Shown here piece after piece: positions 1,810-33,577 of a DNA stretch of 64,000 nt. Under the pieces are notes generated by a model. That model was not told the DNA's origin and made no database searches. It worked only from the letters and a program-made list of their open reading frames with translations. Origin of the DNA: Sphingomonas aliaeris (GTDB lineage: Bacteria > Pseudomonadota > Alphaproteobacteria > Sphingomonadales > Sphingomonadaceae); assembly GCF_016743815.1 (NCBI RefSeq), contig NZ_CP061036.1, positions 139,172-203,171 on the forward strand, given 5' to 3'. Made by a program: the position numbers and the translations under genes. Each line of letters starts with the position of its first letter. Within the stretch, counting starts at the first letter, position 1.

Positions 1810-2090
1810 CGGAGTTCGGTGGCCGCTCTCATGCGGCAACGGTCAAACTGAAGATTTCTAGGACCGTATCGGAAAGCCGCTGATCGTCTCAAAAGACTGT
1901 CTCAAAACCGATCATCAATTGGGTAGAGACGCCTTCGAAAATCAAGGAGCTTTCGGTCACTCCCACCCGTGCCGCGTGACACCCCACGACTTCCTGCTCC
2001 ATCCGACCGTTTACTGCTTCGGACGACAATCGCCGATGGATGTCGCTCGGGTGGAGGTTTCAATATTTCCGAGAGAACCAACACCAGGAC

Positions 2091-2115
2091 TGTAGGTTTT
2101 CCTGAAATGGTGGAC
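2091..2115 (+). repeat. left terminal inverted repeat of the Tn402-like transposon
   Basis: The repeat begins TGTAGG and contains TTCCTGAA and GGTGGAC at the same spacing as the right end. A second copy of the inner motif, CCTAAATTGGTGGACG, lies at 2158-2173 (first copy 2101-2116), matching the multiple transposase-binding repeats typical of such ends. The 420 bp from 1810 to 2229 hold this end and no gene that I can support. Confidence 0.8.
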
Positions 2116-2229
2116 GGCATCTGCCCAGCGGCACGCACCCAAAACAGCGGATTTGTACCTAAATTGGTGGACGTCAGCGTCTTCGCCTTAGGATCGAACT
2201 CCCATCTGCCTCAGTCGGCGCTCATGGGA

Positions 2230-3766
2230 TCAGATGTAGTGCCGGAACGGCAGCGGCGGTGCGGTAACGGTATGTGGCGACGCCATCAGGATCTCACCTA
2301 CCCGATCGGCGAACTTGAGCGTCACGGGCAGGGCGCTCGCGAAATCGCAGGCGTTATAGTTGACCTTGGTGAGCGCAAGGATGTCACCGAGCACCTCTAC
2401 GATGTCCCCTTCGCCATGCGTCACGTCGACGGTGAGCGGCTTGGGGGTCTCGAACCCTTGATACCCTGCCAGCCGAGGCACGAACCCCCGCGCCCAAAGG
2501 TAACCTGACCAGTCACCCACGGTGAGGGCCGTGCCGCGGAGGACGGGTGTCGACGCAGAGGGACGGAACAGCCGAACATCATCGAGCTGCTTGATCCTGA
2601 CTCCTACCAGCTGTGTTTCGGTGGGCACTGCGCTGCAAAAGCCGTCCCACTCATCGTTGGAAAAGCGGTGACGCCCATGAATGAACAGCTGGTTCGGTGG
2701 CTTGCCGTGCTTGAGCTTATAGCCCTCGACCACGGAGGTCATCAAATTCGCCGCCGCGCTCCTCGAGAGGTGATATTCCTTGCGCTCGTCGGAGTACCAG
2801 GGGCCGAGGGCGCCGCGAAAGACGAGGCCGTCGCCTGAGTTGAGGAACATCTGCGCGGCGCAACAGGCCTCGCCCGTTGCCGCAGGCGTGTCGTCGTTCT
2901 TAAACACCAGTCCGACGTAGCAAACGCCAGGACGGACATGAGCCAACGCCCACGGCTTGGCGTCCATCTTGAAGTAGAGCGTGGTGCAGAAGTTCCAGGC
3001 AACCGTGGCCTCGTCCTGGAGGCCGCGCCGGCGGTCGTTGGCAATGTTGAGGTTGCGGTCGACCAACGTGCTCTCGAGAATCAGCTGCAGGACGACGCCG
3101 TCCTGCAGCAACTCGGCTTTCAGCTGATGGTGGAAATTGCTTGAGAACAGGTAGGTCTCGGCATCCCGCACCGTGTCGGGGAACAGGTCGCCGCCCATCT
3201 GGAAGAAGCGTTTGGCGTCCTTGAAGCTCGTGATGTCGGAGAGGGGTGCGCTCGTCCTTGGGCGGTGGTGCGACCTGGGGGCGTCCATAGCGATAGACGA
3301 CGTCCGGAACGACAACGAGCCAGACGTCGGGACGGCGCTCCTCGGCGCGGATGTGCGCGCGGATCGCGTCGGCGAACAGCAGCACCGTGGAACGAACCGC
3401 GTCGGCGCGATTGTTCTTTTTGATGCAATGATCGATGTCGCCGCTCTTGACCGCTAGCTCGACCATGCCGCGGGTCGGCAGCGCGATGCCGAAGCAGGCC
3501 TCGAAGCCTGGCCATGCGGGTGCCCATAGGACGGGCTTGCCCTTTGCATCGACCTTACCGGGAATATGCAGGCTGATCCGCTCTAACCAGCGGCGGGATA
3601 GGCCGACGCCGCTCTCCGTCCCGATGACGCCCAAGCGGACCTGGGAGCGGCCATCTGGACCTTCGAGCGGCCCGAAGAGGAAGAGCCCATCTTTTGGCGC
3701 TTCCATCTGCTGCCCGTGACCGAACTCGAGCAAAGGCTCGGCGATGCGGTGCGTGAGGATGCTCAT
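2230..3766 (-). pseudogene. short prokaryotic Argonaute (SPARTA MID-PIWI subunit), frameshifted as sequenced
   Basis: Two minus-strand frames together encode about 511 residues, the usual size of a short pAgo. The N-terminal frame (from ATG 3766) runs through the MID region to VVVPDVVYRYGRPQ. The sequence then continues in another frame from SDITSFKDAKRFF through the PIWI region (CYVGLVFKNDD, LFIHGRHRF) to the typical Argonaute C-terminus PLPFRHYI. The switch is near 3250, at a CCCC run; removing one C restores a continuous frame. The usual PIWI catalytic Asp is absent, as in all short pAgos: it binds a guide and senses target but does not cut. Its ATG overlaps the TIR-APAZ stop (ATGA), so the two are translationally coupled. 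In SPARTA, guide-directed recognition of invader nucleic acid triggers the partner's NADase and kills or arrests the cell. Confidence 0.85.
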
Positions 3767-5157
3767 GCGTCGGCCTCCTCCGGTATCCCATCCCGGTCGA
3801 AGGCCGTTTCGAAGTCCTCTGACAGAGTTATCTGGCCTCCCTCGTCTTCCTCGGCTCGGCGGTCTTCTTCCGCGGCGAAGCTGACCGGAAAGTCGAAGCT
3901 CATTGGTAGGCTAGCGACCGCGAGGCGCTCACCGGACGCGGCAATATCTAAGGTCGCATCACCTTCGGCAAGCCAGCCCATTGCGGCAAGCAGCATGTCG
4001 CGCCATTTGTCGTTGAACCAAGACCGCGTGAGGCGCAACCGGATGCGCTGCAGCTGTTCACCCGGGAGCGGGGTTCGGCCATTGGTCGTCACCGCAACAT
4101 TGGCATGGACCCGGAAGAGAGCATCCGGCCAGAGCTTGGGTTGAGCGACAAGGCACAGATGCCAGCGCCGGTCCTTGAACTTGCCGCTCAGGACACGGTC
4201 GACCCGATGGCCGTCGCTCAGCGTCAGCTTCACCCTTCCGTCGATGAGTCCGTCGGGGAAGAAGCGGCCTCGGGCGCCCGAGGCGAAATCGACAGGAAGT
4301 AGCCCGAGACGATGCATGGCCAGGTCCCAATGCTGACGCATCAGGTTGACGGCGATCCGCCGCGCGTTGGAACGCTCACCGAAGTGGCGGCTATATGTAC
4401 CGTCGATCACGCCGTTGAAGGGCAGGCTAGCGCGTGCCTTCAACGGCGGCGCGCCATTATCGAGACGCTCGATCGCATCGGGTCCGCAGAAGGCGATAGC
4501 GCCTCCCTCGTGAAGGACGTGGGGAACCTTGGTGAACTGGCTCCACGCTTCCAGCTGCGCAGTCGTTCCCTTCGCCTCCAGGATCCAGACGTCAGGCCTC
4601 GCCCGGAGTTCGAACCAGTTGCTGTAAAGCGTCTCGGAATTTAGCGTGACCAGCTTTCGACCGTCCTCTTGGGCAGCGACGATCATCGCAAGCTGCTCGG
4701 CGTCCGGATGCTCGACCTTCGGTACACGTGAGGTGTCGAGCGTCTCGAACAAGGGCTGAAGGCAGGCTGCCCAGTTAGGGAACGCATTGTGTGCGTTCTG
4801 GCGGAGGATCTCTGTGGGGAAATCGCCGAAGTCCACGGCGGCGATCCGGATTGGGACCATAAACTCCGGGTCGTTTAGCTTGCGACGCATGACGTCGCCG
4901 AGGGCGAGTTCCTTCTTTACGCCTTGCTTGCCGATGTGCTCGGACACGACGACGATCTGCTTGATCGCCTCGTGCCGCAGCACGTGCTCGATCTTGTCCC
5001 AGAAATCGTCGCCGCCCCGAAGCGCGCGAACGTCGACCCAGACCTTGTATCCGGCCGTGGTTAGGCGCCCGGCAAGCCACCGGGCGAAGCGATTGTCCTC
5101 AGGATTGGCGTGCGTGATCAGAATTGTGTCGCGCACCGGTGTCGGAGCGGTAGTCAT
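3763..5157 (-). CDS. TIR-APAZ NADase subunit of SPARTA
   Basis: 464 residues. The N-terminal TIR domain (about 10-140) has ILITHANPED, the WVDVRALRGGDDFWDKIE segment and VVVSEH; Glu83 in KKELALGD is the likely NADase catalytic Glu by position. The rest (about 170-460) fits the APAZ region that binds the short Argonaute: it is rich in beta-strands and has FNGVIDGTYSRHFGERSNAR and a C-terminal acidic tail. Its stop overlaps the Argonaute start by four bases, the standard SPARTA gene order. The family forms a heterodimer with the Argonaute and oligomerises on guide-target binding to degrade NAD(P)+. The start is ATG 5157. A VapBC pair lies 48 bp upstream on the same strand and may share its transcript. 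Confidence 0.9.
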   Translation of the reverse strand: MTTAPTPVRDTILITHANPEDNRFARWLAGRLTTAGYKVWVDVRALRGGDDFWDKIEHVLRHEAIKQIVVVSEHIGKQGVKKELALGDVMRRKLNDPEFMVPIRIAAVDFGDFPTEILRQNAHNAFPNWAACLQPLFETLDTSRVPKVEHPDAEQLAMIVAAQEDGRKLVTLNSETLYSNWFELRARPDVWILEAKGTTAQLEAWSQFTKVPHVLHEGGAIAFCGPDAIERLDNGAPPLKARASLPFNGVIDGTYSRHFGERSNARRIAVNLMRQHWDLAMHRLGLLPVDFASGARGRFFPDGLIDGRVKLTLSDGHRVDRVLSGKFKDRRWHLCLVAQPKLWPDALFRVHANVAVTTNGRTPLPGEQLQRIRLRLTRSWFNDKWRDMLLAAMGWLAEGDATLDIAASGERLAVASLPMSFDFPVSFAAEEDRRAEEDEGGQITLSEDFETAFDRDGIPEEADA

Positions 5158-5205
5158 GGGAGTCCCCGCCAGCAGAGTGCCGAACCTAAAAGCACGAATG
5201 TGCGA

Positions 5206-5604
5206 CTACTCTGCCAAGGGGCGCACGTTGGTGATGGTGATGCCTACATCGGCGCTCGCAAGTGGCTCGTCCGTTGTAAGCATCTCAGCTTGCAGGTCGA
5301 TCGCCAAGGCAAGGCATGCCCGATCGCCGAGGGACAGACCGAGCGCCTTCGTCGCTGGCCGAAGGTCGCCTACTATGAGCGCCTGGGCAGGAGTGAGCGG
5401 CCGGACATCGAGATGCAGCCCGCCAAGTGCCTCACGTACCTCGTCGAGCGGCAATCCTCGGTCCCGTAGCTTGGAAACGACCTCCGCGAGGTTGGCTGTT
5501 CCGATGATGCTGCGGGTCAGGACGTCGATTATCCGATCCGCCCCGGGTTCATCGTTTAGAAGGCAGAGCAGGGCGGAGGCGTCGAGTACGACTTTGCTAC
5601 TCAC
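5206..5604 (-). CDS. vapC: VapC-like PIN-domain ribonuclease toxin
   Basis: 132 residues from GTG 5604, which overlaps the antitoxin stop (GTGAGTAG); an in-frame GTG at 5616 is also possible. The PIN-domain acidic residues are visible in VVLDASALL, NLAEVV, LSLGDRACLALA and LTTDEPLA, giving the four-acid Mg-dependent RNase site. VapC toxins usually cut tRNA or rRNA and are neutralised by the cognate VapB. It lies between vapB and the SPARTA genes on the same strand with a 48-bp gap to TIR-APAZ, so it could be the second gene of a four-gene operon. Confidence 0.88.
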   Translation of the reverse strand: MSSKVVLDASALLCLLNDEPGADRIIDVLTRSIIGTANLAEVVSKLRDRGLPLDEVREALGGLHLDVRPLTPAQALIVGDLRPATKALGLSLGDRACLALAIDLQAEMLTTDEPLASADVGITITNVRPLAE

Positions 5605-5845
5605 GCTCCGCCTCACGCCGACGCTCCGCGATCAGCTCGTCAGCCAAGCCGACGCCTTCGGGCACATACTTGCGCAGGATCGCGCGAGCACGCTCAAGTG
5701 CCTTAGGTACGGAACGTACCCGCAGCTCGCCATCGTCCACATCGACGAGGACGGTGTCACCCGTGGTGATCCCGAGCTCACGGCGCATTGCCGCCGGGAT
5801 CACGAGCTTACCACCGTCCACGATCTTGACCCTCTGTGCTTCCAT
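5597..5845 (-). CDS. vapB: AbrB/MazE-like (VapB) antitoxin
   Basis: 82 residues from ATG 5845 (a TTG nine bases upstream is less likely). The N-terminal half is a swapped-hairpin AbrB domain, with VKIVDGGKLVIPAAMRRELG and TVLVDVDDGELRVRS. The charged C-terminal helix (LIAERRREAERE) is the expected toxin-binding tail. AbrB-type antitoxins bind their own promoter as dimers and repress the operon together with the toxin. The final codons overlap vapC. Confidence 0.87.
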   Translation of the reverse strand: MEAQRVKIVDGGKLVIPAAMRRELGITTGDTVLVDVDDGELRVRSVPKALERARAILRKYVPEGVGLADELIAERRREAERE

Positions 5846-5982
5846 CTGCACCAAACCCGCTGATACAACCCGTCCAAGACCTTGTACCGGAGAGCAAAGT
5901 CGGACGCCAGCGTGAAGGCAGGGATTAATGCACGGCCGATCACCGAAATAGCGTTCATCGATAATGGGGCAGCTACTTAGAC

Positions 5983-6014
5983 CCGGTCCGCTTAGCTAGG
6001 CTACGTAGGACCGG
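5983..6014. repeat. inverted repeat upstream of the serine recombinase, candidate res subsite
   Basis: Perfect 7-bp arms CCGGTCC (5983-5989) and GGACCGG (6008-6014) are separated by 18 bp and lie about 80 bp before the recombinase start. Size and position suit a resolvase crossover or regulatory subsite. No experiment supports this, and promoter or operator roles remain possible. Confidence 0.4.
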
Positions 6015-6094
6015 TAGTTGCCGTTCTGAGCCGATTGCTGCATGACTGGCTCACAAGGGTGTACCTAACTAAGCCGGGCAGGAGTAACGACCAC

Positions 6095-6763
6095 GTGAAA
6101 GGCAGCGAGGTACGGGCGGCGCGGGTGTACCTGCGGGTGAGCACGGACGAGCAGGATCTGACGCGGCAGGAGAGCATCGTTGCTGGCGCGCGGGCTGCCG
6201 GCTTCTACGTCGCGGCGGTCTACCGGGAGAAGGCGTCTGGCGCGCGACCTGACCGGCCGGAGCTGTTGCGCATGGTGGCGGACCTGCAGCCGGGCGAAGT
6301 GGTGGTCGCTGAGAAAATCGACCGAATCAGCCGCCTGCCGCTGCCGGAAGCCGAACTGCTCGTGGAGGCGATAAGGGGCAGGGGGGCGCGGCTGTCAGTG
6401 CCCGGGATCGTCGATCTGTCCGATCTGGTGGCGGACAGCGCGGGCGTGGCGCGCATCGTGCTGGAGGCGGTGCAGGACATGCTGCTGCGCGTGGCACTCC
6501 AAACAGCGCGCGACGACTACGAAACCCGGCGCGAGCGGCAGCGCGAGGGCATTGAGATCGCGAAGAAGGCAGGGCGGTACACCGGTCGCAAACCTGACCT
6601 AGCCCATCACCGCCGCATCGTAGGCTTGCGCGAGGCTGGTATGAGCATTGCGAAGACGGCTGAGCTCGCTGGGTGCAGCATCGCTCACGTCAAGCGGGTG
6701 ACGGCGATCCATCGCGCTAGATCAGCACCGCCTTCAAGTGCGTCAGCCGACAACAGTAGGTAG
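6095..6763 (+). CDS. serine recombinase (resolvase/invertase family)
   Basis: 222 residues from GTG 6095, chosen because AGGAG lies 8-10 bases upstream; the frame also opens at 6035. The catalytic domain (about 5-150) begins ARVYLRVSTDEQDLTRQES, with the nucleophilic Ser in RVST, and has the conserved EKIDRISRLPL block. The C-terminal part (about 165-210) is a resolvase helix-turn-helix (GRKPDLAHHRRIVGLREAGMS, SIAKTAELAGCS). Length matches small resolvases. In Tn402/Tn5053 elements a serine resolvase (TniR) resolves cointegrates but normally sits beside tniQ; here the gene is about 23 kb away near the left end, so a TniR role is inferred, and an independent acquisition is equally possible. 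Confidence 0.87.
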   Translation: MKGSEVRAARVYLRVSTDEQDLTRQESIVAGARAAGFYVAAVYREKASGARPDRPELLRMVADLQPGEVVVAEKIDRISRLPLPEAELLVEAIRGRGARLSVPGIVDLSDLVADSAGVARIVLEAVQDMLLRVALQTARDDYETRRERQREGIEIAKKAGRYTGRKPDLAHHRRIVGLREAGMSIAKTAELAGCSIAHVKRVTAIHRARSAPPSSASADNSR

Positions 6764-6847
6764 CCAACTGCCGCCATAATCCTGATCGGTGATCTGACAC
6801 GGGGTTCTGACACCTGCAAACCTTGGAAAGGCTGGGGCAGCGGGACG

Positions 6848-8378
6848 GCGTCACAACCGTCCGAGACTGTTGAAAAACGGCTGCTTGCGACGGTGACGAG
6901 GGCGTGATTCACTCCTGCAAGGCTTCGGGGGGGCATGGACATGATGGGTCGGCAGGTGGCACAGGGCGTACTGTTCTACGGGTTCCGGCTCGACGACCAT
7001 GTGCCGGCCGGCCACCTGCTCAGACGCATCGACGGGCTGCTCGACTTCGGCTTCGTGCGCGATGCGCTGGCAGCGAGCTACAGCACGAGCGGGCGGCCCT
7101 CGATCGATCCGGAACTGATGCTCAGGATGCTGTTGATCGGCTACCTGTTCGGCATTCGCTCGGAACGCCGCCTGTGCGAGGAGGTGCACCTCAATCTCGC
7201 CTATCGTTGGTTCTGCCGGCTCGATCTGGCTGACCGGGTGCCCGACCATTCGACCTTCTCCAAGAACCGGCACGGCCGCTTCCGCGCCTGCGACCTACAT
7301 CGTCTGCTGTTCGAGCAGGTAGTTTCGCGATGCGCCACGGCCGGGCTGGTAGCGGGGCGCGACCTGGCGGTGGACGGCAGCACGATCATGGCCGACGCCA
7401 GTCGCGAGAAGAAGCTGAAGGGGGCCAACGCCGCAGACGAGCTTCGTGCCGGGGAAAACATATCGCGACCCGTCGCCGAATATCTGGCGGCGCTGGATGC
7501 CGCGTTGCCGCCAGATCCCGACGAACCTGCGTCCGTCGATCCGACCAGCATCTCGCCGACCGACCCGCAGGCGGCGCTCACCTGCAAGCATGGGCCAGCG
7601 CGGTACGCATACGCCATCAACCCGCTGCTCGACCTTGATACCGACTGCATCCTCGATGTGGAGGCGACGCCCGCCCGCTTCGCAGCCGAGGTGGGGGCGA
7701 CCCGGACGCTGGTGTCACGCGCCGGCACCAGGCTGGGCATCGAACCCGCCAGTCTCTCGGCCGACAAGGCGTATGGTAGCGGTCCGCTGCTCGGTTGGCT
7801 GATCGACCGGAACATCACGCCATACATCCCGGTCATCGACCGGACCCGCCAGCGGGACGCCTTCTTCACCCGGGATGCCTTCCGCTACGACCGGGAAGCG
7901 GATACCTACCGCTGTCCGGCGGACAAGCTGCTCGGCTATTGCGGCACCAACCGGACCAAGCAGGTGCGCGTCTACCGAAGCCGGCCGGCCGATTGCGCCG
8001 CCTGCGAGCTGAAGCCGCAATGCACCATCAGTCCGAAGCGGGGTGTCACCCGGCTCGTCAGCGAGGAAGCCCGCGATACCGTGCGCGCCCTTGCCGGCAC
8101 CAACGCCTATGTGCACGCACGGCGTCGAAGACAGCGGATCGAGCGCGTGTTCGGCCACCTGAAACGCAACCTGGGGCTACGAACGCTCAAGCTGCGGGGC
8201 CTGTCAGGAGCCGCCGAGGAGTTCACCATGGCCGCCGCGGCATACAACCTTCAGCTGCTCGCCCGGCAGGCCGCGCCAGCCTGATACGCGGCGCATCCTC
8301 CGGTGTCCGGCGTCACCAGCCATCCGCCACGCCGATTTCGCGCAGGCCTTTTTCAACGGTCTCGTCCGGTTGTGACAC
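6848..8378 (+). mobile_element. IS1182-like insertion sequence
   Basis: The ends are imperfect inverted repeats: GTCACAACCG and GTTGAAAAA are shared between 6850-6879 and the reverse complement of 8347-8376. One complete transposase gene lies between them, for a total of about 1.5 kb. I could not identify a target duplication by eye, so the outermost bases may be off by a few positions. Confidence 0.78.
6935..8284 (+). CDS. IS1182-family DDE transposase
   Basis: 449 residues, full length for the family. The N-terminal DUF772-like domain shows HLLRRIDGLLDF, GRPSIDPELMLRMLLIGYLF and LNLAYRWFCRLD. The catalytic region has AVDGST (first Asp), ADKAYGS (second Asp) and RQRIERVFGHLKRN (Glu). A cysteine motif, CAACELKPQC, precedes the last catalytic segment, as in DDE_Tnp_1_6 proteins. 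The gene is intact and fills the IS. Confidence 0.93.
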   Translation: MDMMGRQVAQGVLFYGFRLDDHVPAGHLLRRIDGLLDFGFVRDALAASYSTSGRPSIDPELMLRMLLIGYLFGIRSERRLCEEVHLNLAYRWFCRLDLADRVPDHSTFSKNRHGRFRACDLHRLLFEQVVSRCATAGLVAGRDLAVDGSTIMADASREKKLKGANAADELRAGENISRPVAEYLAALDAALPPDPDEPASVDPTSISPTDPQAALTCKHGPARYAYAINPLLDLDTDCILDVEATPARFAAEVGATRTLVSRAGTRLGIEPASLSADKAYGSGPLLGWLIDRNITPYIPVIDRTRQRDAFFTRDAFRYDREADTYRCPADKLLGYCGTNRTKQVRVYRSRPADCAACELKPQCTISPKRGVTRLVSEEARDTVRALAGTNAYVHARRRRQRIERVFGHLKRNLGLRTLKLRGLSGAAEEFTMAAAAYNLQLLARQAAPA

Positions 8379-8444
8379 CCGAGCCTGCGGAAATTACTGC
8401 CGAACTTTAATTTCAAGGCAACCGGTTCACGCTATCGTATTTCG

Positions 8445-8799
8445 ATGGCGATTGCCGCACCTTACCCTCCGAGCCGCATGGCCTCGCTCTCTGTCGCGGC
8501 CGTGCTAATCCTGCTGCTGGGTTACGGCGCGGCGTCATTGGCGGGCCTTATCGAGCGGTGGGGCGCGTCGCCGGGCGGATTGGGCGTGCTGGCAGGCTGG
8601 ATGGCGCTGGCCGCGCTCGCGCTTCCTCTGATGCGTGCGCGACCTACACGGCGCGCGATGGCGATGCTCAGTTCTCATCGAGCGATCGTTGAGCGCGTAC
8701 ACCAGCGGCAAGACGGAAGCTGCATTCGATGCGGAAGGGTTCACGTTCACCCTCCATGCACGCCTTGAAGACGTCTCGATCAATGATGGAAACAATTAG
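8445..8799 (+). CDS. small two-helix membrane protein, probably frameshifted near its middle
   Basis: From ATG 8445 the first about 75 residues have two hydrophobic helices (LSVAAVLILLLGYGAASLAG and GGLGVLAGWMALAALALPLM). As sequenced the frame ends at 8768 with an implausible tail. The +1 frame instead gives a natural-looking acidic C-terminus (YTSGKTEAAFDAEGFTF) and ends in a TAG at 8797-8799 that overlaps the GTG of the response regulator. I therefore suspect a single-base error around 8640-8670 and co-translation with the regulator. Function unknown; the protein is inner-membrane by prediction. Confidence 0.45.
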
Positions 8800-9176
8800 T
8801 GGGCCAGCGTAAGCCGATTGCGAACAAGACGATCCTGATCGTGGAAGACGAAGCCATCCTCAGGTTCGATCTGGTCGACTTCTTCGAACATGCAGGTTGG
8901 AAAGTGTTCGAGGCCACGAATGCCGAGAGCGCCATCGAATTGCTCGATCGTCACAGGGAGATCGGCGCTGTTCTGACGGACGTCAACATGCCTGGGTCGA
9001 TGGACGGCCTTGCACTCGCTCATCACGTGCGCGGGCGCTATCCGCCAACCGTCCTGTTCGTGGTGTCGGGCAACGTGCCCCTGGACAGCGAGGATCTGCC
9101 GGTCCGAACCGCGTTCATGCCCAAGCCGTTCGATCCGCATCGCCTGCTTCGCGAACTGGAGGCGGCAAGTCTGTGA
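8799..9176 (+). CDS. single-domain response regulator (CheY-like)
   Basis: 125 residues starting at GTG 8799. Only a receiver domain is present: ILIVEDEAILRFDLVDFF (acidic pair), AVLTDVNMPGSMDGLALA (phospho-acceptor Asp), LFVVSGN (Thr/Ser position) and FMPKPFD (conserved Lys). With no output domain it would act by phospho-relay or protein contact. The dedicated kinase is not adjacent; the degenerate HWE kinase at 25.9-26.9 kb is on the same element. The TAG/GTG overlap couples it to the small membrane protein upstream. Confidence 0.9.
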   Translation: MGQRKPIANKTILIVEDEAILRFDLVDFFEHAGWKVFEATNAESAIELLDRHREIGAVLTDVNMPGSMDGLALAHHVRGRYPPTVLFVVSGNVPLDSEDLPVRTAFMPKPFDPHRLLRELEAASL

Positions 9177-9242
9177 CGGGGGGCTAACCTTAACTGCACA
9201 GGACTCCGGCGGAGGAAGGCGTTCACGCCGGTGCCAGTGCCG

Positions 9243-9920
9243 TCACATCGCCCGCGCCATTTCCCGGTCGATCTGCTGGACCGCGGTGACGAAGGCGAAC
9301 AGCTTCTGCGGGTCGAGCTGACCACCCGTCCGGACGCCGGAGCACAGGTCGACACCATAGGGGCGAACCTGCCCGATCGCTTCCGCCACGTTAGCGGCGG
9401 TCAGGCCCCCGGCAAGAAACACCGGCTTCTCGGTCGCACGGACGAAAGCGGCGCTGACCGCCCAGTCATGCGCGCGGCCGGTTCCGCCCAGCTCAGCGAC
9501 CGGGGCGTTGGGCCTGCCGGAGTCGAGCAGGAAGGCATGAACGCAAGGCTCATAGGCCGGGATCAGCTGTAGCGCTTCCGGCCCTTCGACGTGGATGACC
9601 TGTATCCGGCGGACGTGCGGCTCCAGCGCTGCCAGCTTGCCCGACTCCGCGGGATCGATGTGCGACACGATCTGGACCGCCGACGGAGCGGTCGCGCGGA
9701 CATGGGCGGAGATGGCGTCGGCGGTCGTCTCGGATGTCAGCAGGAAGGTGGCCACCGGCGGTGGCACGAGCGCCGTCACCTCTGCGATCGCCCTGTCGGA
9801 GATCGGACCGGGACCAGAGGGCATGCGTGCTACCAGCCCCAGCGCATCCGCCCCCGCGGCGATCGCGATCCGCGCTTCATCCGGCGAGGCGATGCAGCAA
9901 ATCTTTATACGAGTTCTCAT
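9243..9920 (-). CDS. trpF: phosphoribosylanthranilate isomerase paralogue (TrpF)
   Basis: 225 residues from ATG 9920; the open frame extends to 10043 but family alignment begins at MRTRIKICCI. TrpF isomerises N-(5'-phosphoribosyl)anthranilate in tryptophan synthesis. The catalytic Cys is in KICC (usually KICG), the catalytic Asp in FLLDSG, and the phosphate-binding loops are FLAGGLTAANV and GVDLCSGV. No other trp gene lies nearby, so this is probably an accessory copy carried by the transposon rather than the housekeeping one. It converges with the response regulator. Confidence 0.87.
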   Translation of the reverse strand: MRTRIKICCIASPDEARIAIAAGADALGLVARMPSGPGPISDRAIAEVTALVPPPVATFLLTSETTADAISAHVRATAPSAVQIVSHIDPAESGKLAALEPHVRRIQVIHVEGPEALQLIPAYEPCVHAFLLDSGRPNAPVAELGGTGRAHDWAVSAAFVRATEKPVFLAGGLTAANVAEAIGQVRPYGVDLCSGVRTGGQLDPQKLFAFVTAVQQIDREMARAM

Positions 9921-10000
9921 GGGATGGAGACATGCCGCCAGGCCGATGCAAGGGCAATGCGCCGGTCCGTGCCGGTTGCCGTCGTGAGGTCGGGCGTCCT

Positions 10001-11563: not shown

Positions 11564-11631
11564 CGCCGCGTACCTCCAGACGTCCGAGCGGCCACCTCTC
11601 CAGCAGAGCGCCGAGGTGCGTCGCAAGAAAG

Positions 11632-11656
11632 GGAACCGTTCCGTTTCCTTATCGTT
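11632..11656 (+). promoter_or_regulatory. EcfG (general stress response) promoter of the DUF4142 gene
   Basis: GGAAC at 11632-11636, a 16-bp spacer and CGTT at 11653-11656 match the alphaproteobacterial EcfG consensus exactly. The -10 element lies 49 bp before the ATG at 11706. The element also carries an ecfG gene at 21569. Confidence 0.75.
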
Positions 11657-11705
11657 CGACCCGTTGATTTCGGTCAATGCCTGACAACACCAACGGAGAA
11701 CCTCG

Positions 11706-12276: not shown

Positions 12277-12285
12277 GTGATACCC

Positions 12286-12327
12286 ACCGGGCCAGGTCGA
12301 TGAAGCCCCCTTTAGACCTGGTCCGGT
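12286..12327. terminator. bidirectional hairpin between DUF4142 and marR genes
   Basis: Arms of 13 bp (12286-12298 and 12315-12327) pair at 12 positions around a 16-base loop, located between two convergent genes. No clear T-run follows, so it is a candidate terminator only. Confidence 0.5.
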
Positions 12328-12342
12328 ACCTGTTTATGGCGA

Positions 12343-12861: not shown

Positions 12862-12874
12862 CGCTGCAAGACTG

Positions 12875-17066: not shown

Positions 17067-17081
17067 CCAGCAACCCTATCG

Positions 17082-22486: not shown

Positions 22487-22536
22487 CGACGGTCGATCCT
22501 GCAGCGACCGTCGAATCTCGCTCGCGATCGTTACCG

Positions 22537-22674: not shown

Positions 22675-22765
22675 ATCGGACGATTGCGGATCGTTCGGCG
22701 CTGCCACGCTGGGCACTACGCGTCTGGACGACGCTGCGATCGTGAAAGGACGCGGTCTCGGCTGG

Positions 22766-23613: not shown

Positions 23614-23617
<4 letters not shown>
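22766..23617 (-). CDS. short-chain dehydrogenase/reductase
   Basis: 283 residues. A Rossmann fold binds NAD(P): [20 protein letters not shown], the LLADVT Asp, ILVNNAGRG and the catalytic YGPSK (Tyr and Lys). The canonical catalytic serine is not clear, because [10 protein letters not shown] stands where two serines are usual. It starts four bases inside the aldo/keto reductase stop (ATGA), so the two reductases are co-translated and probably act on related carbonyl substrates. Substrate unknown. Confidence 0.88.
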
Positions 23618-24603
<986 letters not shown>

Positions 24604-24957
24604 TGTTGATCCTCTCGTCTTCGGGCGAGTGTGCCAAGTCTGGGCCCGCTTCCCATTGTGCAAATCAGCGATTGTGGCGAACTCAGCGGCGCCGCTCACT
24701 TCTTGTTCCGACCGGGACTCGGCCGTCCTGATACCGACATGCCACACGAGCCGGCCGACTGGCGGCGCGCCCTCGGCCTGTGCAGTTCGTGTGGTACAAC
24801 CTAGCGCGCAGTCCTGGCTTCGAGGCGCTTACCAGCCGTATCCATGATCATTGCGTTCCAGGCGAAAGGGCAGGGGCACAATCACCCACTGCTCCTTCGC
24901 CTTGCTGAAACCGTTCGATCCCGGACGAGTTCTGAGGCCGTTCGAAACGCTTGTCGC
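24604..24957. other. 354-bp intergenic region without a recognised gene
   Basis: It lies between the AKR start and the DUF892 stop. It should contain the AKR-SDR promoter, but I found no clear EcfG motif, hairpin or supported small ORF. Confidence 0.5.
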
Positions 24958-27353: not shown

Positions 27354-27378
27354 GAAGCGTAACGGCTTTTTAGGTGTC

Positions 27379-28014
27379 TCACGCGGCCCCGATCGCCGCG
27401 GGCGCTTCGATCAGCCATCGCCCGACGATCCGCTCGAAGTCGACATACGGAATCCGATCGGGGTCGAACTCTAGCACGGCCGCCAAATCGGGCAAATCGG
27501 CCAGAAACGCCTCATAGACGCGCTGCACGCGGTCGGCGCTCGGCAACTCGCGGCGCGACACGTTGGCGAGCCAATCACGCGCCTCGCGGAGCGCCCGAGC
27601 CGGGTCGCCGCCATGCTCGTGGATGTCCATGCCGGCCAGATCGGAGATGAAACGCTGGTAGCGGAACTGCTCGACGTCGAGGATCAGGACACGCTTGGCT
27701 TTCTGATGTTTGCCGCCGTACCGCTTGGCGCCAAGGAACAGCCCGAGTTCGAGCGGCATGTTGAAGCGCGGCAGGTTGTTAACCGCGTCCAGCTCGGTGC
27801 GCGACAGGTCATGGATGCCGTAGCGGCACTGTTCGATCAGCGCAAAAATCTTGTCGATCCGGGTCTGGCCACCGTCATCTAGCTCGCGCGCCGAGCGCGG
27901 GCGAAAGCCGCAGACGAGGATGGCAAAGATCAGCGCCCGGAACGTCGGCGCGAACGCGTCGTCGAAGGGACAATTGATGAAGACGTCGTCCGTCGACGTC
28001 TGGACGGCCGGCAA
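27379..28014 (-). CDS. conserved protein of unknown function (FINCPFDD family)
   Basis: 211 residues from TTG 28014, two bases after the stop of the upstream small gene. Recognisable blocks are VFINCPFDDAFAPTFRALIF, ILVCGFRPRSARE, CRYGIHDLSRTELDA, LPRFNMPLELGLFLGAKRYG and YQRFISDLAGMD. I have seen this block order in uncharacterised proteins. The N-terminal strand-Asp pattern and following helices resemble TIR/nucleoside-deoxyribosyltransferase-type nucleotide-binding folds, which is inference from pattern only. Its position beside a TniABQ module and a protease suggests an accessory, perhaps defensive, role. Confidence 0.6.
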   Translation of the reverse strand: MPAVQTSTDDVFINCPFDDAFAPTFRALIFAILVCGFRPRSARELDDGGQTRIDKIFALIEQCRYGIHDLSRTELDAVNNLPRFNMPLELGLFLGAKRYGGKHQKAKRVLILDVEQFRYQRFISDLAGMDIHEHGGDPARALREARDWLANVSRRELPSADRVQRVYEAFLADLPDLAAVLEFDPDRIPYVDFERIVGRWLIEAPAAIGAA

Positions 28015-28015
28015 G

Positions 28016-28186
28016 CTACTTCTTCTTGGCCAAAACGCTCTTCACTGCCGCGGCGATACGCTGGTCGGAGACGGTCGCCTTTTTGGTCGCCACCGGCGCC
28101 AGAACGTAACGGCCCGTCGCTGCGCTGCGCCCGAGCACGCCCGGCTTGCTGCCCTTGGTGGTGATCGTGTCGGACCTGGTCGCCAT
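28016..28186 (-). CDS. small basic hypothetical protein (56 aa)
   Basis: From ATG 28186: MATRSDTITTKGSKPGVLGR, then a VLAPVATKKATVS segment and a Lys-rich tail. The sequence has the look of a short antitoxin or nucleoid-type protein, but no domain is recognised. It is directly upstream of the FINCPFDD gene with effectively no gap, so the two probably form a unit. Confidence 0.6.
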   Translation of the reverse strand: MATRSDTITTKGSKPGVLGRSAATGRYVLAPVATKKATVSDQRIAAAVKSVLAKKK

Positions 28187-28245
28187 GACGGTAATATGCG
28201 CCTCCCCTCCCCGCCGCGCAAGCGGCGTCCATGGCGCCGGCCCGA

Positions 28246-29109
28246 CTAGCGCCATCGTTCCCCATCGCCGACATCGAAGCTGATTGCATCGGCAAAGGGC
28301 CGGAGCACCTCGCTGGGAATCGCGTAGGTGATCGGCAGGCTGATCTCGCCCGCGGTGAGCCCGCTCGTTACCATGCCGAGCACCGCACCCGTCCTCGAGT
28401 CACACACCACGCCACCGCTGATGCCGCCAAGCGCCACCGAGCTGATCTGGAACAGTCGCGTCTCACCGCGCTGTATCGCCGGGATTACTGCGCTGACGAT
28501 CCCTTCGAAAAAGGAGGGTTGGACCAGCCCGCGGTTGGTCGCGTTCGAGAAAAACATCGCCTTGCCGAGTGGGAAACCGCCGATCAGCACCCGGTCGCCT
28601 ACCCCGACCTTGGTCGAGTCGCCCCAGGTAACCGGCGGCACGTTGTAGGGGGCCTCCTCGCTCTCGGTCGCAGGACAGATCAGGATGCCGGCGTCGATCC
28701 CCGGTCCGCCATTCTCGAATCGTTGGTCATAGTAGCGCATGACGGCCGCGAACGGGTACGGCCGTTGCGCCTCTACGCCGTTCAGCCGGCTGTTCGCCCA
28801 GAGGTACGCTTCATGCTCCTTTAAGCGGAGCGCTTCCACGACGTGCCAGCAGGTGTAGAGCTTGCCGCGCCCGACCTGAAAGGCGGTGCCCTGAATGTCC
28901 ATGACCCAGTCCTCATGGACGGGATCCTGGATCGCGATATGGAGCGCGAGGTCGCCCTTAGGCACGCCCGCCTTGTTACCGACGGGTACGATTGATCGTG
29001 CGAGGCGGGAGATTGGCGTGTCACGCCCGCGCGACGCCCAGGGCACGCGCTCGAGCGCCTCCTTCAGATCGACCGGTTTCGAAGCAGGCCTTCGATTGCG
29101 CTCGGCCAC
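28246..29109 (-). CDS. trypsin-like serine protease (S1 family)
   Basis: 287 residues, no signal peptide, so probably cytoplasmic. The catalytic triad is visible: His in YTCWHVVEAL, Asp in GIDAGILICP and Ser in LGGISGGVVCD (GxSGG). The sequence around GTAFQVGRG begins the first barrel. Cytoplasmic trypsin-like proteases occur as effectors or accessory proteins in defence loci. It lies between the HU gene (6 bp) and the 56-residue gene on the same strand. Confidence 0.85.
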   Translation of the reverse strand: MAERNRRPASKPVDLKEALERVPWASRGRDTPISRLARSIVPVGNKAGVPKGDLALHIAIQDPVHEDWVMDIQGTAFQVGRGKLYTCWHVVEALRLKEHEAYLWANSRLNGVEAQRPYPFAAVMRYYDQRFENGGPGIDAGILICPATESEEAPYNVPPVTWGDSTKVGVGDRVLIGGFPLGKAMFFSNATNRGLVQPSFFEGIVSAVIPAIQRGETRLFQISSVALGGISGGVVCDSRTGAVLGMVTSGLTAGEISLPITYAIPSEVLRPFADAISFDVGDGERWR

Positions 29110-29115
29110 GAACGC

Positions 29116-29385
29116 TCAGAGCCTATCCTTCAGCGCCTTGGCCGGCGTAAACGTCAGCTTCTTCGACGGCGCGATCGTGATCGCCTCGCCCGTGGCCGGA
29201 TTGCGGCCGCTGCGCTCGCTCATGCTCTTCACCTTGAACTTGCCGAAACCCGGCAGGTTGATCTCGTCACCCGCCGCGGCTGCCTGGCCGATCGCGTTCA
29301 GCGCCGCGTCGAGCAGTTCGCGCGCCTGCTTCTCCGTCGTGCCGAGCTGGTCGGCGACCTGCTTGGCGAGATCCTTGGTGTTCAT
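29116..29385 (-). CDS. HU-family DNA-binding protein
   Basis: 89 residues from ATG 29385. The HU/IHF fold is clear: MNTKDLAKQVADQLGTTEKQ, then LPGFGKFKVKSMSERSGRNP (the DNA-bending arm with RNP) and LTFTPAKALKDRL. It bends DNA nonspecifically. Inside a Tn402-like element it might assist transposition or stabilise other assemblies, but an ordinary accessory nucleoid role is as likely. It appears to start the protease operon. Confidence 0.92.
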   Translation of the reverse strand: MNTKDLAKQVADQLGTTEKQARELLDAALNAIGQAAAAGDEINLPGFGKFKVKSMSERSGRNPATGEAITIAPSKKLTFTPAKALKDRL

Positions 29386-29500
29386 GCTGTCCGCTTCCCC
29401 TGTTTGCCGAGCCGATGTCATAGCGGCGAAGCCACCCGCGGCAAACCGTCGCTCCGCCCGTTGCCGACCGGGATCGCCGTCCCGCTTCAGCCGTGAGTCC

Positions 29501-30709
29501 TCAGGCAGGAAGGTCCGCCAGACTGCCGCGCCAACCTGGATCTCCGGGGCGCCTGATCAGGCTGGTGAAGCCGAGCTCCGCCCGGATCGCCTCAAAGCGT
29601 GCAAGTACATCATCGACGTCGATCCCTGATGCTTCATGCAGGACGCGCATGCGTTCCCGCAGGGCTGCCGGCCACCGCTCGCTGCCTCGGATCAGCATGG
29701 CCTGCACGCGTGTCGTGGCGTTCTCGAATAACCACTCGAGCTTCTGGGTCTTGACTTCGGAACCCGACGACCTAGTCCAGTACCAAAGGGAGAACAGCAC
29801 GCTAATCTCCTCGCGCGAGATGATTGCGATCACCGCGCACAGTACCTTGGCCCTCATTCTCGGTGAAAGCTTGGGGAAGGAAGCGTCCGCCCAATTGCGA
29901 GGCCGGTGATGCGGAACAGCGCCGATGAACTCGCTTTGATATCGGTTGATCAAGCTGGTTTGGTCCAGATTGCGCGCGAGCAGCGCCTTTGTCAGATCGT
30001 CGAGCAGAGCCAGGAACTCGGACGGCTGGACCTCGCCTACCCCGAACCAGTGCGACGGATGGCCGAGCCAGGCGGCTCGCAAGCATTTCTCAAATGCCAG
30101 CAGCATCTCGAACTGTCGGGCGCCGCGCCGATCGTCGCTGGCCCACTCGCTGGCGGGGACACGATGGACAATGGTGTGAAGGAGCTTGCGGCAGTCGGGG
30201 CAGATCAGTTCGGTCGCGCCGTTGATGTGCACAAAGGTCGGCCCGCGAGTGGGCACGCAGCTGCGGCAGCCTTCATACCGCCACCGCAAATGACGATGAC
30301 AGAGGACCAGCGGCAGAGCTGTGTCGCGATCAAGGTAAGCCCCGCCTGCCTTTCGACCTTCTTCAAGGCAAGTGGGACACCAGCAAGAGTGCAGAGGGTC
30401 CAGGGCATGTCTGGCCCGATCGGTGCAGCGCAGCCAATCCACGGCAAGGTTCGGCCAAGCCCGTCGGAGTTCCAGCGCGGCCACGCATTCCGGAGCCAAT
30501 GCGAACGCCTCAGCGATACGATCCCGCTCGCCGGAATCGAGTTCGACGTCCACGCCGCCAGGAGCGACGTCGCCGTTCCGCAGCAGGCTGGCACGCAACC
30601 CCTCCACTTCCATGTCGTAGACCGCCGCAGTTCTGCCCAGCCAGGACGAGATCAGCTCGTCCGGATGCGGACGCGGGGCGACCGGCAGCGGGGATGCGTC
30701 GACTACCAT
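29501..30709 (-). CDS. tniQ: TniQ transposition protein
   Basis: 402 residues. The N-terminus is typical (PHPDELISSWLGRTAAVY), followed by the zinc-binding segments CWCPTCLEEG, LCHRHLRWRYEGCRSC and LICPDCRKLL. TniQ is related to TnsD and directs target choice with TniB. It is three bases downstream of the tniB stop. The C-terminal 150 residues are less conserved. Confidence 0.88.
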   Translation of the reverse strand: MVVDASPLPVAPRPHPDELISSWLGRTAAVYDMEVEGLRASLLRNGDVAPGGVDVELDSGERDRIAEAFALAPECVAALELRRAWPNLAVDWLRCTDRARHALDPLHSCWCPTCLEEGRKAGGAYLDRDTALPLVLCHRHLRWRYEGCRSCVPTRGPTFVHINGATELICPDCRKLLHTIVHRVPASEWASDDRRGARQFEMLLAFEKCLRAAWLGHPSHWFGVGEVQPSEFLALLDDLTKALLARNLDQTSLINRYQSEFIGAVPHHRPRNWADASFPKLSPRMRAKVLCAVIAIISREEISVLFSLWYWTRSSGSEVKTQKLEWLFENATTRVQAMLIRGSERWPAALRERMRVLHEASGIDVDDVLARFEAIRAELGFTSLIRRPGDPGWRGSLADLPA

Positions 30710-30712
30710 CGC

Positions 30713-31642
30713 TCATGCAGTGCCCACCGCGCCCGACCCTGGCCGCCCTCGTCGTTTCGCGATCTCCTTCATGGTGACGCTGGGAAGGACAAGATCATCG
30801 GCGTCCAAGTCTTCGGGACCGATCATCTCCGCGCCCCGCCGGATCGCCCGAACGGCGAGGTTCTCAACAAGCCGGAAAATACGGCCGGTATTCCCGTCGG
30901 TCAGCTCCAGCAGCCTGGCCCTGAACAAGTCCTCGGCGAGCGGCGACGGATTTCGGAGCGGCAGGATGGCGGCCAGCGTCACCAAGAGCAGCCGAAAGGC
31001 TTCGTCATCTCGCCAGCGCACGAGCTCGATCGCATCGAAGCGATCGGCGAGCGCTGCGTCCGTCAAGAGCGCCGCCCTCGCCTCGTGGTTGCCCGTGCAG
31101 ACCAATGGCATTCGCAGGTCGTTGGCGAAGTAGCGGATCGTGTTCAGGAAAATGCGTTGCTGGCGCGGTGTGCAGGCCAGCATATGGTTGATCTCGTCAA
31201 GTAACAGCATGCGCGCGCCGACCTGCCCCATCAACCGGCGCGTAAGCTGCCGGGCGCGTCCGAGATCGGACCCACCAGCGAAGCCCGCACCCAGCGCGGC
31301 CAGGATCTCGTCGTAGAACTCGCCCTCGGTCGGCTCCGGCGGCAGCTGCACGGCGACGACCGGGACGGTCGCCAGCCCCGTTCTGTCATCGAAGGTGCGC
31401 GGGTTTTCGTCCGCGAACCGCTCGACGATATGCGATTTGCCCATCCCTGTTTGCCCGAAGACGAGAAGGCAGGGCATGCGGGTGCGAGGCGGGTGCGCCA
31501 GCAACTCGCCCAGCATCGACCGGACCTTCTCCGCCTTCGGAAAACCGACCCAGCGATCCTTGCGTATCCATGCGACACGCTCATCGTCCGGCCAGAGCGC
31601 CTGGTCGCGGTAGCCTTCCGCCAGATGCGCGAATTTGGTCAT
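30713..31642 (-). CDS. tniB: TniB AAA+ ATPase of the transposon
   Basis: 309 residues from ATG 31642, which overlaps the tniA stop (ATGA). AAA+ motifs: Walker A VFGQTGMGKSHIVERF, Walker B RMLLLDEINHML, sensor VCTGNHEARAALL. TniB, like TnsC and MuB, binds DNA with ATP and recruits the transposase to the target. Length and order match Tn402/Tn5053 modules. Confidence 0.93.
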   Translation of the reverse strand: MTKFAHLAEGYRDQALWPDDERVAWIRKDRWVGFPKAEKVRSMLGELLAHPPRTRMPCLLVFGQTGMGKSHIVERFADENPRTFDDRTGLATVPVVAVQLPPEPTEGEFYDEILAALGAGFAGGSDLGRARQLTRRLMGQVGARMLLLDEINHMLACTPRQQRIFLNTIRYFANDLRMPLVCTGNHEARAALLTDAALADRFDAIELVRWRDDEAFRLLLVTLAAILPLRNPSPLAEDLFRARLLELTDGNTGRIFRLVENLAVRAIRRGAEMIGPEDLDADDLVLPSVTMKEIAKRRGRPGSGAVGTA

Positions 31643-33321
31643 CCTCTCTTCTCGTCGACCAAGAACGGAAGGTCGCCCAGTGGAGGCGCGGGTGGCGGGC
31701 ATTGGCCAGACACAGGCGCCGGCTGGGCACGCTTTGGCAGATCAGAGTGCTTGGCCGCGCGGACGCGTTGAGCGTCCGCGAGCGCCGTCGCGGTGCGCTG
31801 CATGGCGAGCCGGGCCGCCTTAGTCTTGCGGGCAGCCTCGGCGACGATGAAGCGCTGCGTCTCGACAGCGTCAAAGATGAGCTGCTCGTTGACAGCCCCG
31901 CGGCCCCGCTCGCGCAGGGTACGCTGCGCCTCCAGCTGCTCCCAGCGGGTGATCGCTGGCCGGCGAAGGTCGCGGTACGGCACCTCAAGATGGTCACCGT
32001 CCGGCAGCTCGAGCCAGATCCGTGAAAGGTCGCGCGGGTCCCACCGGACGGGCAGCTTGCCGCCGGGTCGGGTGTAATGGCAGGACAACGCATCATCCCA
32101 ATAGTGGGTATTGAACAGCTCGATCCCTTCGCGCGTGACCGCCCGCACCTCGCAGGGCAGAAAGTCGAACAGGAACGCGGCCGGATCAGCGGGCAGCCGC
32201 ATGAGTTCCGTCCGTCGCTCAACCGCTTCGTCCCAAGCGGTCGCAGGCGGGATGCCGAGCCCGCGGTGAATATCTGCGTGGTACGGCCCGATAATTTCCC
32301 CGGCGAGCCAGGCCTCGATCTCCGCCAGCGTCATGCACGCCTTACCTTCGGCCTGGTAGTCGCCGCGCTCGGCGACGTTGGAAAAAGTGGTGCCGGGCAA
32401 CAGGTGGACGGCGCCCATCATCGTCCCGATCAGCCGCTCGATGTGCGCACCATAATGGGGACGCTTGCGAGGCCGGTACTCGAGCGCGATCGAGTAGGTA
32501 CGGCAGCCGCGCTTCAATGCCTTCGAATGGTGCTCCCGCGCATTGTCGAGGTGAAGACGGTCCATCAGGCCCTGATTGCCCCATGGCGCAGACATGCCGC
32601 GTTCGGCGAGCTAGGGGTCCTTCGGCAGCACGGCGTGGCGCATGGCCATCCCAACCGACACCGCCGACGGGTGCAGCATCGTGAGGTGGAAGCCCGGCAC
32701 CGTCCTGCTCGCAATGTCGATCATGAGCGTGATCCACGGCCGGCCGATCGGCCGACGGTACACGTCGTCGACTGCGATTACGTCGACGAGCGTGTGGTCG
32801 GACTGCACGAGTTCGAGTGCGTAGCCTGCCTCAAGGCGGCCGCGCACCGGCCGAAACCGGTCGGCCGCCGCCTTGGTGCCCTCGCGTGCGGCGATGATGT
32901 CCTCCGGCGGAAGCGCCGCGATGCGAGCGCGCAGTGCCTTTACGCTCGGGATTGGGACGCCGGCCTTCAGGCACTCGTGACGCAGCCAACGTCGCAAGCT
33001 AGCTACGCTCGGCTTCTCCGCGGTGAGATAAACCTCGCGGAGCGCTCGGCGGATCAGGTCTTCCTGTTCGCTCAGCAACCGGCGCTCGCCCCGTACCCGA
33101 CCGCGCTTGCCCGGGAGAAGCGAGGCGAGCTCCGGTGAAGCGCGGTACGCCCGGATTAGTTCGAACAGGCGGGAGCGTCCAAGACCCAAGGTGGCTGCAG
33201 CGTTCGCTGCGGTCTGGGCATTGATCGTGACCTTGGCGGCAAGAGGCCGGATCACGAGTTCCCGGCGATGGGCCTCGCTAAAGGCTGCGTCACTCGCACC
33301 GTCCGTTCCCGCCTCGCGCAT
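31639..33321 (-). pseudogene. tniA: TniA DDE transposase, split by an in-frame stop
   Basis: 560 residues if read through. The DDE/rve core has Asp in LVQSDHTLVDVI, Asp in RLHLDNAREHHS and Glu in AHIERLIGTM. N-terminal helix-turn-helix regions and a C-terminal Mu-type domain flank it. A TAG at 32611-32613 interrupts the frame after VLPKDP and before LAERGMSAPWGN, between the first and second catalytic Asp. The frame is the same on both sides, so this is a base substitution. As written the transposase would be inactive unless the amber codon is suppressed or is a sequencing error. The downstream part has an ATG at 32595. Confidence 0.88.
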
Positions 33322-33429
33322 CGGTTCACAACCCTGCCGCTTGGACTGCGGACAAAGTCTATCTTTTCAGGGCATGAGTCCAGCGTTTCGGGAGCAGAAT
33401 GCCCGGGCGAACCGGCAATCAAGGCCGCA

Positions 33430-33454
33430 GTCCACCTATTCAGGAACTGCGACA
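33430..33454 (-). repeat. right terminal inverted repeat of the Tn402-like transposon
   Basis: Read inward (minus strand) it begins TGTCGCAGTTCCTGAA and includes GGTGGAC. AGGAC follows outside at 33455-33459. Inside the end, GGACTGCGGACAAAG (33343-33357) and GAGTCCAGCG (33376-33385) look like further transposase-binding repeats. Otherwise 33322-33577 holds only the tniA promoter region and the antitoxin promoter (AGGAG SD at 33566-33570). Confidence 0.8.
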
Positions 33455-33577
33455 AGGACCCACCCTGCCCGGTCTCATTCTTTTTTCCAGGAATAGAAAT
33501 TACTGGAATAAACAATGGGGGTGACGAACCCGGTTAGATCGCTTATATGTTAGTCAGACTCACTGCAGGAGCTGTCC

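Follow-up and report, generated by a model that had tools for sequence, protein, structure and literature searches.

The element and its boundaries

We analysed a stretch of 64,000 nucleotides from Sphingomonas aliaeris (the window; positions 139172-203171 of contig C2 in genome G000, which has 3 contigs), on a contig that is probably a plasmid, as indicated by a TraK gene at 62265-63074. It contains a transposon of 31,364 bp, running from 2091 to 33454, with tniQ, tniB and tniA at its right end, as a first-pass annotation of the same DNA had described, and the serine resolvase gene tniR towards its left end. This Tn7-superfamily TniABQ/TniR transposon probably arrived in a single insertion next to a dif-like core of a Sphingomonas plasmid, and its family probably homes on such cores. 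The three tni genes lie on the minus strand and encode TniQ (29501-30709, 402 amino acids, Pfam TniQ), TniB (30713-31702, 329 amino acids, related to TnsC in PDB with E=1.1e-16) and TniA (31639-33321), the last being interrupted at codon 237 by an in-frame TAG, which leaves pieces at 33321-32611 and 32595-31639.

The terminal inverted repeats are located at 2091-2115 (plus strand, TGTAGGTTTTCCTGAAATGGTGGAC from 2091) and 33430-33454 (minus strand, reverse complement TGTCGCAGTTCCTGAATAGGTGGAC, ending at 33454). Read directly from the window, the two 25-bp ends are identical at 19 of 25 bases and start with TGT, and the terminal motif occurs again about 50-57 bp inward at both ends (at the left end at about 2158-2176). 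The 5-bp flank AGGAC stands outside both ends, at 2086-2090 and 33455-33459, as the target duplication. The first-pass annotation had placed these ends, the repeat and the AGGAC copies exactly, and the ends recur in other genomes. Among 201 genomes of the genus, the window's own included, the left end (query 2086-3300) gave near full-length matches of 93-100% in 10 other genomes (L009-L018), all beginning at query base 1-6, which is the left end; some of these genomes carry one common insertion, and not all are independent. The same base forms the left end in three plasmid records (H1-H3), and none of the outside flanks in the 10 genomes and the three records equals that of the window. The right end (query 31600-33454) was matched up to 33452-33454 in 3 other genomes of the same set (100%, 97% and 88%). 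This recurrence of both ends counters the suspicion that they are chance matches. Flanks of 5 bp were identical in seven of the eight family members for which both ends were found (AGGAC, CCACC, GGATG, GACGG, CCATC, CCTCA and AAGCC), with the ends of three of the eight pairs (metalli, aquatilis, S2M10) taken from different contigs; the lone exception was the G124 group (GAAGC/AGTGC).

When the window's flanks were joined with a single AGGAC, the joined sequence matched a related plasmid (G092:C19) across the junction at base 700, over joined bases 2-794 (87.0%) and 773-1400 (86.5%), thus giving an uninterrupted site of about 1.4 kb at about 87%. A second contig (G158:C57, joined bases 593-794) likewise spans the junction. 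Such an empty site had been proposed as a check in the first-pass annotation; AGGAC is blurred there by small indels, and a single exact copy was not seen. Five more genomes that match the joined flanks were excluded from this count, because the left side was a remnant of an older element in both of those examined (G097:C24 and G146). Apart from one 78% piece, there were no plasmid matches to the window's left flank. At 2058-2084 in this flank we observed an eroded older end (TTTCCGAGAGAACCAACA) that resembles the reverse complement of TGTCGGTTCTCCTGAAA, and a clearer older end, with a TniQ remnant beside it, is present in G146 and G097:C24; the target was therefore probably hit earlier. We conclude that the transposon is real and that its boundaries have as much support as sequence can give.

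Dif-like cores beside the insertion points

At 33483-33510, outside the element and 28 bp past its right end, lies the sequence TTTTCCAGGAA-6-TTACTGGAATA, which may have been the landmark for targeting. Inverted repeats with 11-bp arms, a 6-bp centre and the inner bases AA..TT (AA-N6-TT) were also read in the flanks of other family members. The same 11-6-11 architecture with AA..TT is that of Xer dif sites. Three types of core were distinguished: type i (CTGTCCGATAA-6-TTATCGGACAG), type ii (TTTAGCGATAA-6-TTCCCGCTAAA) and type iii (TATTCCAGTAA-6-TTCCTGGAATA).

We counted as a core any AA-N6-TT with at least 7 of 11 complementary arm positions and no more than 120 bp from a transposon end; the counts are descriptive, because the first examples had been seen before this definition was settled. 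The scan for terminal repeats had given 46 stretches, 13 of which lacked element genes in the piece covered and were treated as chance. One insertion is repeated in pSCLO_2, NBRC 13935, trueperi and FDAARGOS_908, and another in G124, Ag1, G169 and turrisvirgatae. The sample comprised 36 flanks of 27 insertion contexts; ends in G005, G141 and the loci L189, L191 and L195 stand outside the 27, and in G005 and G141 a transposon end also lies beside a type-i core. A core was found in 14 of the 36 flanks, at 22-28 bp from the end in 12 of these. The other two were at 59 bp (leidyi) and at 4 bp (3P27F8; a 7/11 core that is probably chance, kept among the 14 and left out of the 22-28 bp class). The flank in G006 is the end of another element, not target DNA, and was scored negative. 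When the flanks were shuffled 1000 times by single bases, a mean of 0.37 and a maximum of 4 of the 36 flanks had a core. Positions further out gave 4 cores in 89,008, with none at 8/11 or better. Away from transposon ends, 807,319 bases held 57 cores at 7/11 or better, 21 at 8/11 or better and only 3 at 9/11 or better, all of these 3 being unoccupied homologues of the window's target; this background comprised 27 of 32 pieces, the five omitted being three overlapping or duplicate pieces and two more that are homologous to the window's target. The background density of cores is thus 4-7 per 100,000 positions.

Additionally, 6 left flanks have a homologue that runs through the insertion point without interruption, and the core starts 20-23 bp on in all 6. 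Two of these six contexts use one homologue, several homologues are flanks of another insertion at the same core, and the flank bases before the core that did not align numbered 9 in lacusdianchii and 11 in the window. With flanks and homologues combined, a core at 28 bp or less (20-28 bp) was found in 14 of the 27 contexts, 2 of them via homologues, and inclusion of leidyi gave 15 of 27 at 60 bp or less.

One core can be hit by separate insertions from either side, as in G117 and panni. In G129, two transposon ends stand back to back with about 41 bp between them (L100; C19:21769 and 21811). Near position 17320 of contig C60 in G006 (L106), two ends are about 5 bp apart, and the tni element's own end there reads TAT, not TGT. 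These back-to-back ends in G129 and G006 are repeated hits on one target.

The cores could be bystanders if the transposon inserts at many intergenic plasmid sites and the surviving copies cluster in stability regions, among toxin-antitoxin modules and recombinase genes. Several targets do have VapBC or Xre-RES modules, and metalli, IC11 and 1F27 have neither a core nor a recombinase gene on their visible sides. However, such clustering fails to predict that 12 of 14 core distances fall at 22-28 bp, or that separate insertions arrive at one core from both sides, and we regard this explanation as unlikely. The adjoining core might also suggest that the block moved as a pdif-type module, by recombination between two dif-like cores and not by TniA. 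However, the 120 bp flanking the left end of the window's element lack a core, and 5-bp duplications with inverted-repeat ends are the mark of a DDE transposase product, so that we give this possibility hardly any credence.

Tyrosine-recombinase genes and the proposed target choice

The type-i pattern, with at most one mismatch, was found in 29 of 295 genomes of the genus, at one place in each, and its reversed form in none of the 295. A tyrosine-recombinase match lay about 30-210 bp from the type-i core in 18 of the 29, and 17 of these 18 had no transposon end. A transposon end stood beside the core in 6 of the 29; two of the six repeat the pSCLO_2 insertion and one has the recombinase match too. 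In the converse scan of 30 loci of this recombinase family, a core was found upstream of the longest open frame in 16, and 9 had a transposon end in the piece covered; the figure of 16 is rough, as the recombinase was equated with the longest frame, incorrectly so at some loci, and 3 of the 16 (L192, L209 and L210) look like chance. Among the 27 insertion contexts, 14 had a tyrosine-recombinase match within 1.5 kb on the visible side, and 2 more had a weak one; for scale, there are 14 Phage_integrase matches in the 4.26 Mb of the window's genome. On plasmid gentR the recombinase gene, the core and an Xre-RES pair are all neighbours.

The neighbouring recombinases tested, those of pSCLO_2 and gentR, both matched Phage_integrase and the XerC and XerD models, the latter far below the cut-off. 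This bears on whether we are dealing with an ordinary Tn402/Tn5053 element that hunts the res sites of serine resolvases. The gene set, the 25-bp inverted repeats and the 5-bp duplication are the same, and res hunting has a precedent in the passages of PMC7765201 that treat it; the low identity to Tn402, the class of the two recombinases and the 6-bp centres of the cores make such an element very improbable here. Alternatively, the recombinase and core could be the transposon's own tyrosine resolvase module, since tyrosine resolvases are reported for Tn5053-clade transposons in the relevant part of Benler et al., 2021 (PMC8649781). In our family, the inverted repeat and the 5-bp duplication separate the element's genes from the recombinase gene, cores are present in uninterrupted sites, and a serine TniR lies inside the element. 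No recombinase gene was found inside the inverted repeats among the complete family members examined. We rejected the tyrosine recombinase as the element's own part on the basis of the empty sites and duplications, and consider it very unlikely.

In wider relatives, we looked at 8 other alphaproteobacterial TniABQ loci, which the author picked from a list of 40 among 198 records. In 7 of the 8, a gene annotated as a tyrosine-type recombinase or as a site-specific integrase lay within 2.4 kb outside tniA, and the eighth (Xanthobacter) had a second tni set in its place. In an order-wide set of 29 TniA relatives, four of which cover fewer than 600 upstream bases, a tyrosine-recombinase match lay outside tniA in 1 locus, in the piece covered. 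For the TniA clades below 40% identity the count was 0 of 25, which may miss some, as the recombinase panel is blind to distant types (neither of the two main queries aligns with that of L228).

Several observations weigh against homing on such cores. The window's core has no adjoining recombinase gene; the nearest relative (79% to the recombinase of gentR) is encoded on the same contig at C2:79841-81061, more than 90 kb away. Six of the 29 type-i cores have neither recombinase nor transposon end within 1.5 kb. Among the 12 contexts without a core, metalli lacks one on both flanks and 11 one-sided contexts lack a convincing one on the visible side, while the leidyi core is 59 bp from the end. 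The arms of type-ii cores are complementary at no more than 7-9 of 11 positions, which is also seen among the 57 cores of the background, and the late fixing of the core definition belongs here as well. A convincing core in the gap on the tniA side was found in none of the 8 alphaproteobacterial loci, where three 7/11 matches look like chance. In the next-nearest TniA clade (at least 47% identity) only 1 of 4 loci, one of which covers just 145 bases, had a tyrosine-recombinase match. Finally, an inactive transposase alone fails to explain why two copies that differ in their flanks and core distances (28 and 23 bp), namely the window's and that of S. aquatilis C21 (L093), have the tniA TAG in common. 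This sharing could stem from movement in trans or from recombination that exchanged the right module.

Under the explanation that we prefer, in which the family homes on dif-like cores, plasmid tyrosine recombinases (XerC/D-like) would own 11-6-11 sites near their genes, and the cores may be the active sites of the neighbouring recombinases. The transposon would set one of its ends, left or right, 20-28 bp from a core, on whichever side, and a 5-bp duplication would result. TniQ, with TniB, would recognise a feature common to the core types, most likely the recombinase-bound complex, in parallel to Tn5053, which reportedly senses resolvase-bound res, and TniR would resolve the cointegrate. The boundaries, duplications, empty site, narrow core distance and linkage of core and recombinase gene are the parts that are read from the sequences themselves. 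Closely related TniA and TniQ proteins occur at core types i and ii in aracearum and Ag1 (TniQ tree distance 0.025), which suggests recognition of a bound complex or a common structure rather than of one sequence. For the same reason, the idea that core type strictly follows TniQ clade was rejected. Both type-iii cases with visible tni genes (the window and aquatilis C21) have the second TniQ type. More tentatively, the whole TniABQ clade of alphaproteobacterial plasmids may sense recombinase-core complexes, with one TniQ visiting several unrelated core types; this we hold to be quite possible, rather than probable.

For Tn7-like and CRISPR-associated transposons, the choice of target by TniQ is a central matter. 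If true, the sensing of a recombinase-core complex would be a new protein-guided target class in the Tn7 superfamily. A clade that inserts at an almost constant distance from the sites of plasmid tyrosine recombinases would extend res-site hunting to the other recombinase family. It would also help to account for the gathering of large cargo blocks (defence, efflux, catabolism) at plasmid stability loci, and would offer a testable system with several core types, candidate recombinases and close TniQ proteins.

Mosaic make-up and known systems

The left module (2091 to about 6763) comprises SPARTA, VapBC and TniR. On the minus strand are the short pAgo of SPARTA (2233-3766, 1534 nt, out of frame with 8 stops), its 464-residue TIR-APAZ partner (3763-5157, Pfam TIR_2, PADLOC Aga_TIR E=1.5e-144), the VapC PIN toxin (5206-5616, Pfam PIN) and VapB, a MazE/AbrB-type antitoxin (5627-5941). 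TniR (6035-6763, plus strand, Pfam Resolvase and HTH_7) closes the module, and its region is conserved up to about 6705 in several relatives. Directly after tniR, the hairpin GTCACAACCGTCCGGTTGTGAC (6840-6864 / 8362-8385) is split by an IS1182-family insertion inside the transposon (approximately 6864-8362, plus strand, within hairpin GTCACAACCG..CGGTTGTGAC). The cargo (8363-24926) has blocks in common with the pSCLO_2 element (98.5%, 90.8% and 94.6%) and encodes DUF4403, DUF4142, MarR, an outer-membrane/MFS/HlyD efflux operon, a thioesterase, MlaD, an ABC1 kinase, a sigma factor, an SDR protein and an aldo/keto reductase. The right module (27356-33454; protease, TniQ, TniB, TniA and right inverted repeat) includes a trypsin-like protease (28246-29109, minus strand, Pfam Trypsin_2) and matches S. 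aquatilis C21 (97%) and S. metalli C2 (94%). Because the cargo matches pSCLO_2 while the right module matches these two, the element is, on these alignments, a mosaic of a left module, pSCLO_2-type cargo and a different right tni module.

The slot between the left inverted repeat and vapC is a variable pocket, because different relatives have SPARTA, nothing of it, or a DUF5131 pair there. The same end type with vapBC and without SPARTA was found in five relatives (the genome's own contig C3, G129, G002, G158:C415 and G097:C11), with the resolvase clear in four of them. In S. sp. TZW2008 a DUF5131 gene and a 425-residue open reading frame lie between the left inverted repeat and vapC, and S. 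sp. IC-11 has the pair just inside the repeat (L132 4584-6640 and L150 6093-7963). Three co-directional tniR genes at 8101, 12569 and 24817 of G128:C18 (L091/L092) suggest stacked left modules. In NZ_CP065669.1 a left end (191707) is about 165-168 kb from the matching tni module (4364-6594) along one arc, which includes replication genes, possibly a cointegrate inside the element. Outside the window's element, 35223-58856 holds an AbiE-like pair, an AAA_27 ATPase with a metallophosphoesterase, ResIII, NO VEIN, an N6_N4 methylase and UvrD, and looks like a defence island.

The first-pass annotation had called the block a single mobile unit. It is bounded as one unit that encloses SPARTA, VapBC, the sigma factor, the efflux operon, MlaD and the protease, but its present mobility is doubtful in view of the tniA stop, the frameshifted pAgo and the IS1182 insertion. 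This copy is probably not autonomous, because tniA carries the in-frame stop; there were none in the six genes compared (S. metalli, G006, G124, leidyi, aquatilis C15 and pSCLO_2). On alignment with ShCAST TnsB, the stop would separate what we take to be the first catalytic Asp from the remainder. A search of the window's own genome gave 1 TniA match in total and thus no second relative. SPARTA is probably inactive in this copy, because pAgo is frameshifted: an intact short pAgo adjoining TIR-APAZ was not found, both genes being present with pAgo out of frame. Its homologue is 1533 nt without stops in 4 of 4 relatives checked; the pSCLO_2 homologue matches PADLOC pAgo_I with E=6e-194, and in G055 pAgo matches as two overlapping pieces and may be broken as well. 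The block had also been thought unusually large, and exceptional size was rejected: relatives measure 51,522 bp (pSCLO_2) and 31,201 bp (leidyi) by their coordinates, and the G124 insertion spans 23,776, 36,496 and 133,891 bp in three strains, the last resting on two end regions only. Tn7-like transposons have median lengths of 14-29 kb and reach 140 kb in the figures consulted from Benler et al., 2021 (PMC8649781).

By its protein matches (PDB TnsB E=1.4e-41 with pSCLO_2's TniA as query, TnsC and Pfam TniQ as above), the element belongs with the TniABQ/TniR transposons, as a distant relative of Tn402 placed at superfamily level, and it is at this level that the earlier label 'Tn402/Tn5053-like' holds. 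TniQ gave no sequence match to solved structures at E up to 0.1. Taken strictly the label fails, with identities to Tn402 (R751) of 42% for TniA and 37% for TniB, and TniQ alignable over 40 residues only (42.5%). In the sections of PMC7765201 that bear on it, the Tn5053/Tn402 family is defined by a tniABQ-res-tniR block, and TniABQ with the target's resolvase are used for insertion at res with 5-bp repeats; according to part of PMC11406308, these targets are the resolvase sites of Tn3-family transposons. Our element shares with this family tniA (broken here), tniB, tniQ and a resolvase gene, TGT inverted repeats of 25 bp with subterminal repeats, the 5-bp duplication and insertion near plasmid recombination sites. 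It differs in that the resolvase gene lies opposite tniABQ, so that a single block with close prototype identity was not found (no res site was sought), that the letters of its inverted repeats, which were to be aligned to known Tn5053-family ends, are unlike those of Tn402 (R751), that TniQ barely aligns, and that the targets are cores that go with tyrosine-recombinase genes instead of serine res sites. The dif-like target is a new feature of the element, a kind of landing site unreported for the family in the literature searched: within the open-access text available, subscription papers being outside its scope, no description of dif targeting by TniABQ elements was found, and 'dif' as a whole word is in neither PMC11406308 nor PMC10293859 as seen there.

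The pSCLO_2 element (NZ_AP017656.1, 251099-302620) has the same left module and most of the cargo, a CCACC duplication and a perfect 11-6-11 core 25 bp away. It differs from ours in its length of 51.5 kb, its stop-free TniA, another tni module (TniQ 41.6% identical) and another core type. The likeness to SPARTA systems (short pAgo with TIR-APAZ) lies in both genes with strong PADLOC matches, whereas the pAgo of the window is frameshifted and the reading frame is open in the 4 relatives checked. Tn6022 with TnsF, as far as the portion of Faure et al., 2023 (PMC10293859) describes it, is likewise Tn7-like, with targeting tied to a tyrosine-recombinase fold; TnsF is encoded by the transposon and targets comM, whereas here the recombinase lies outside the element.

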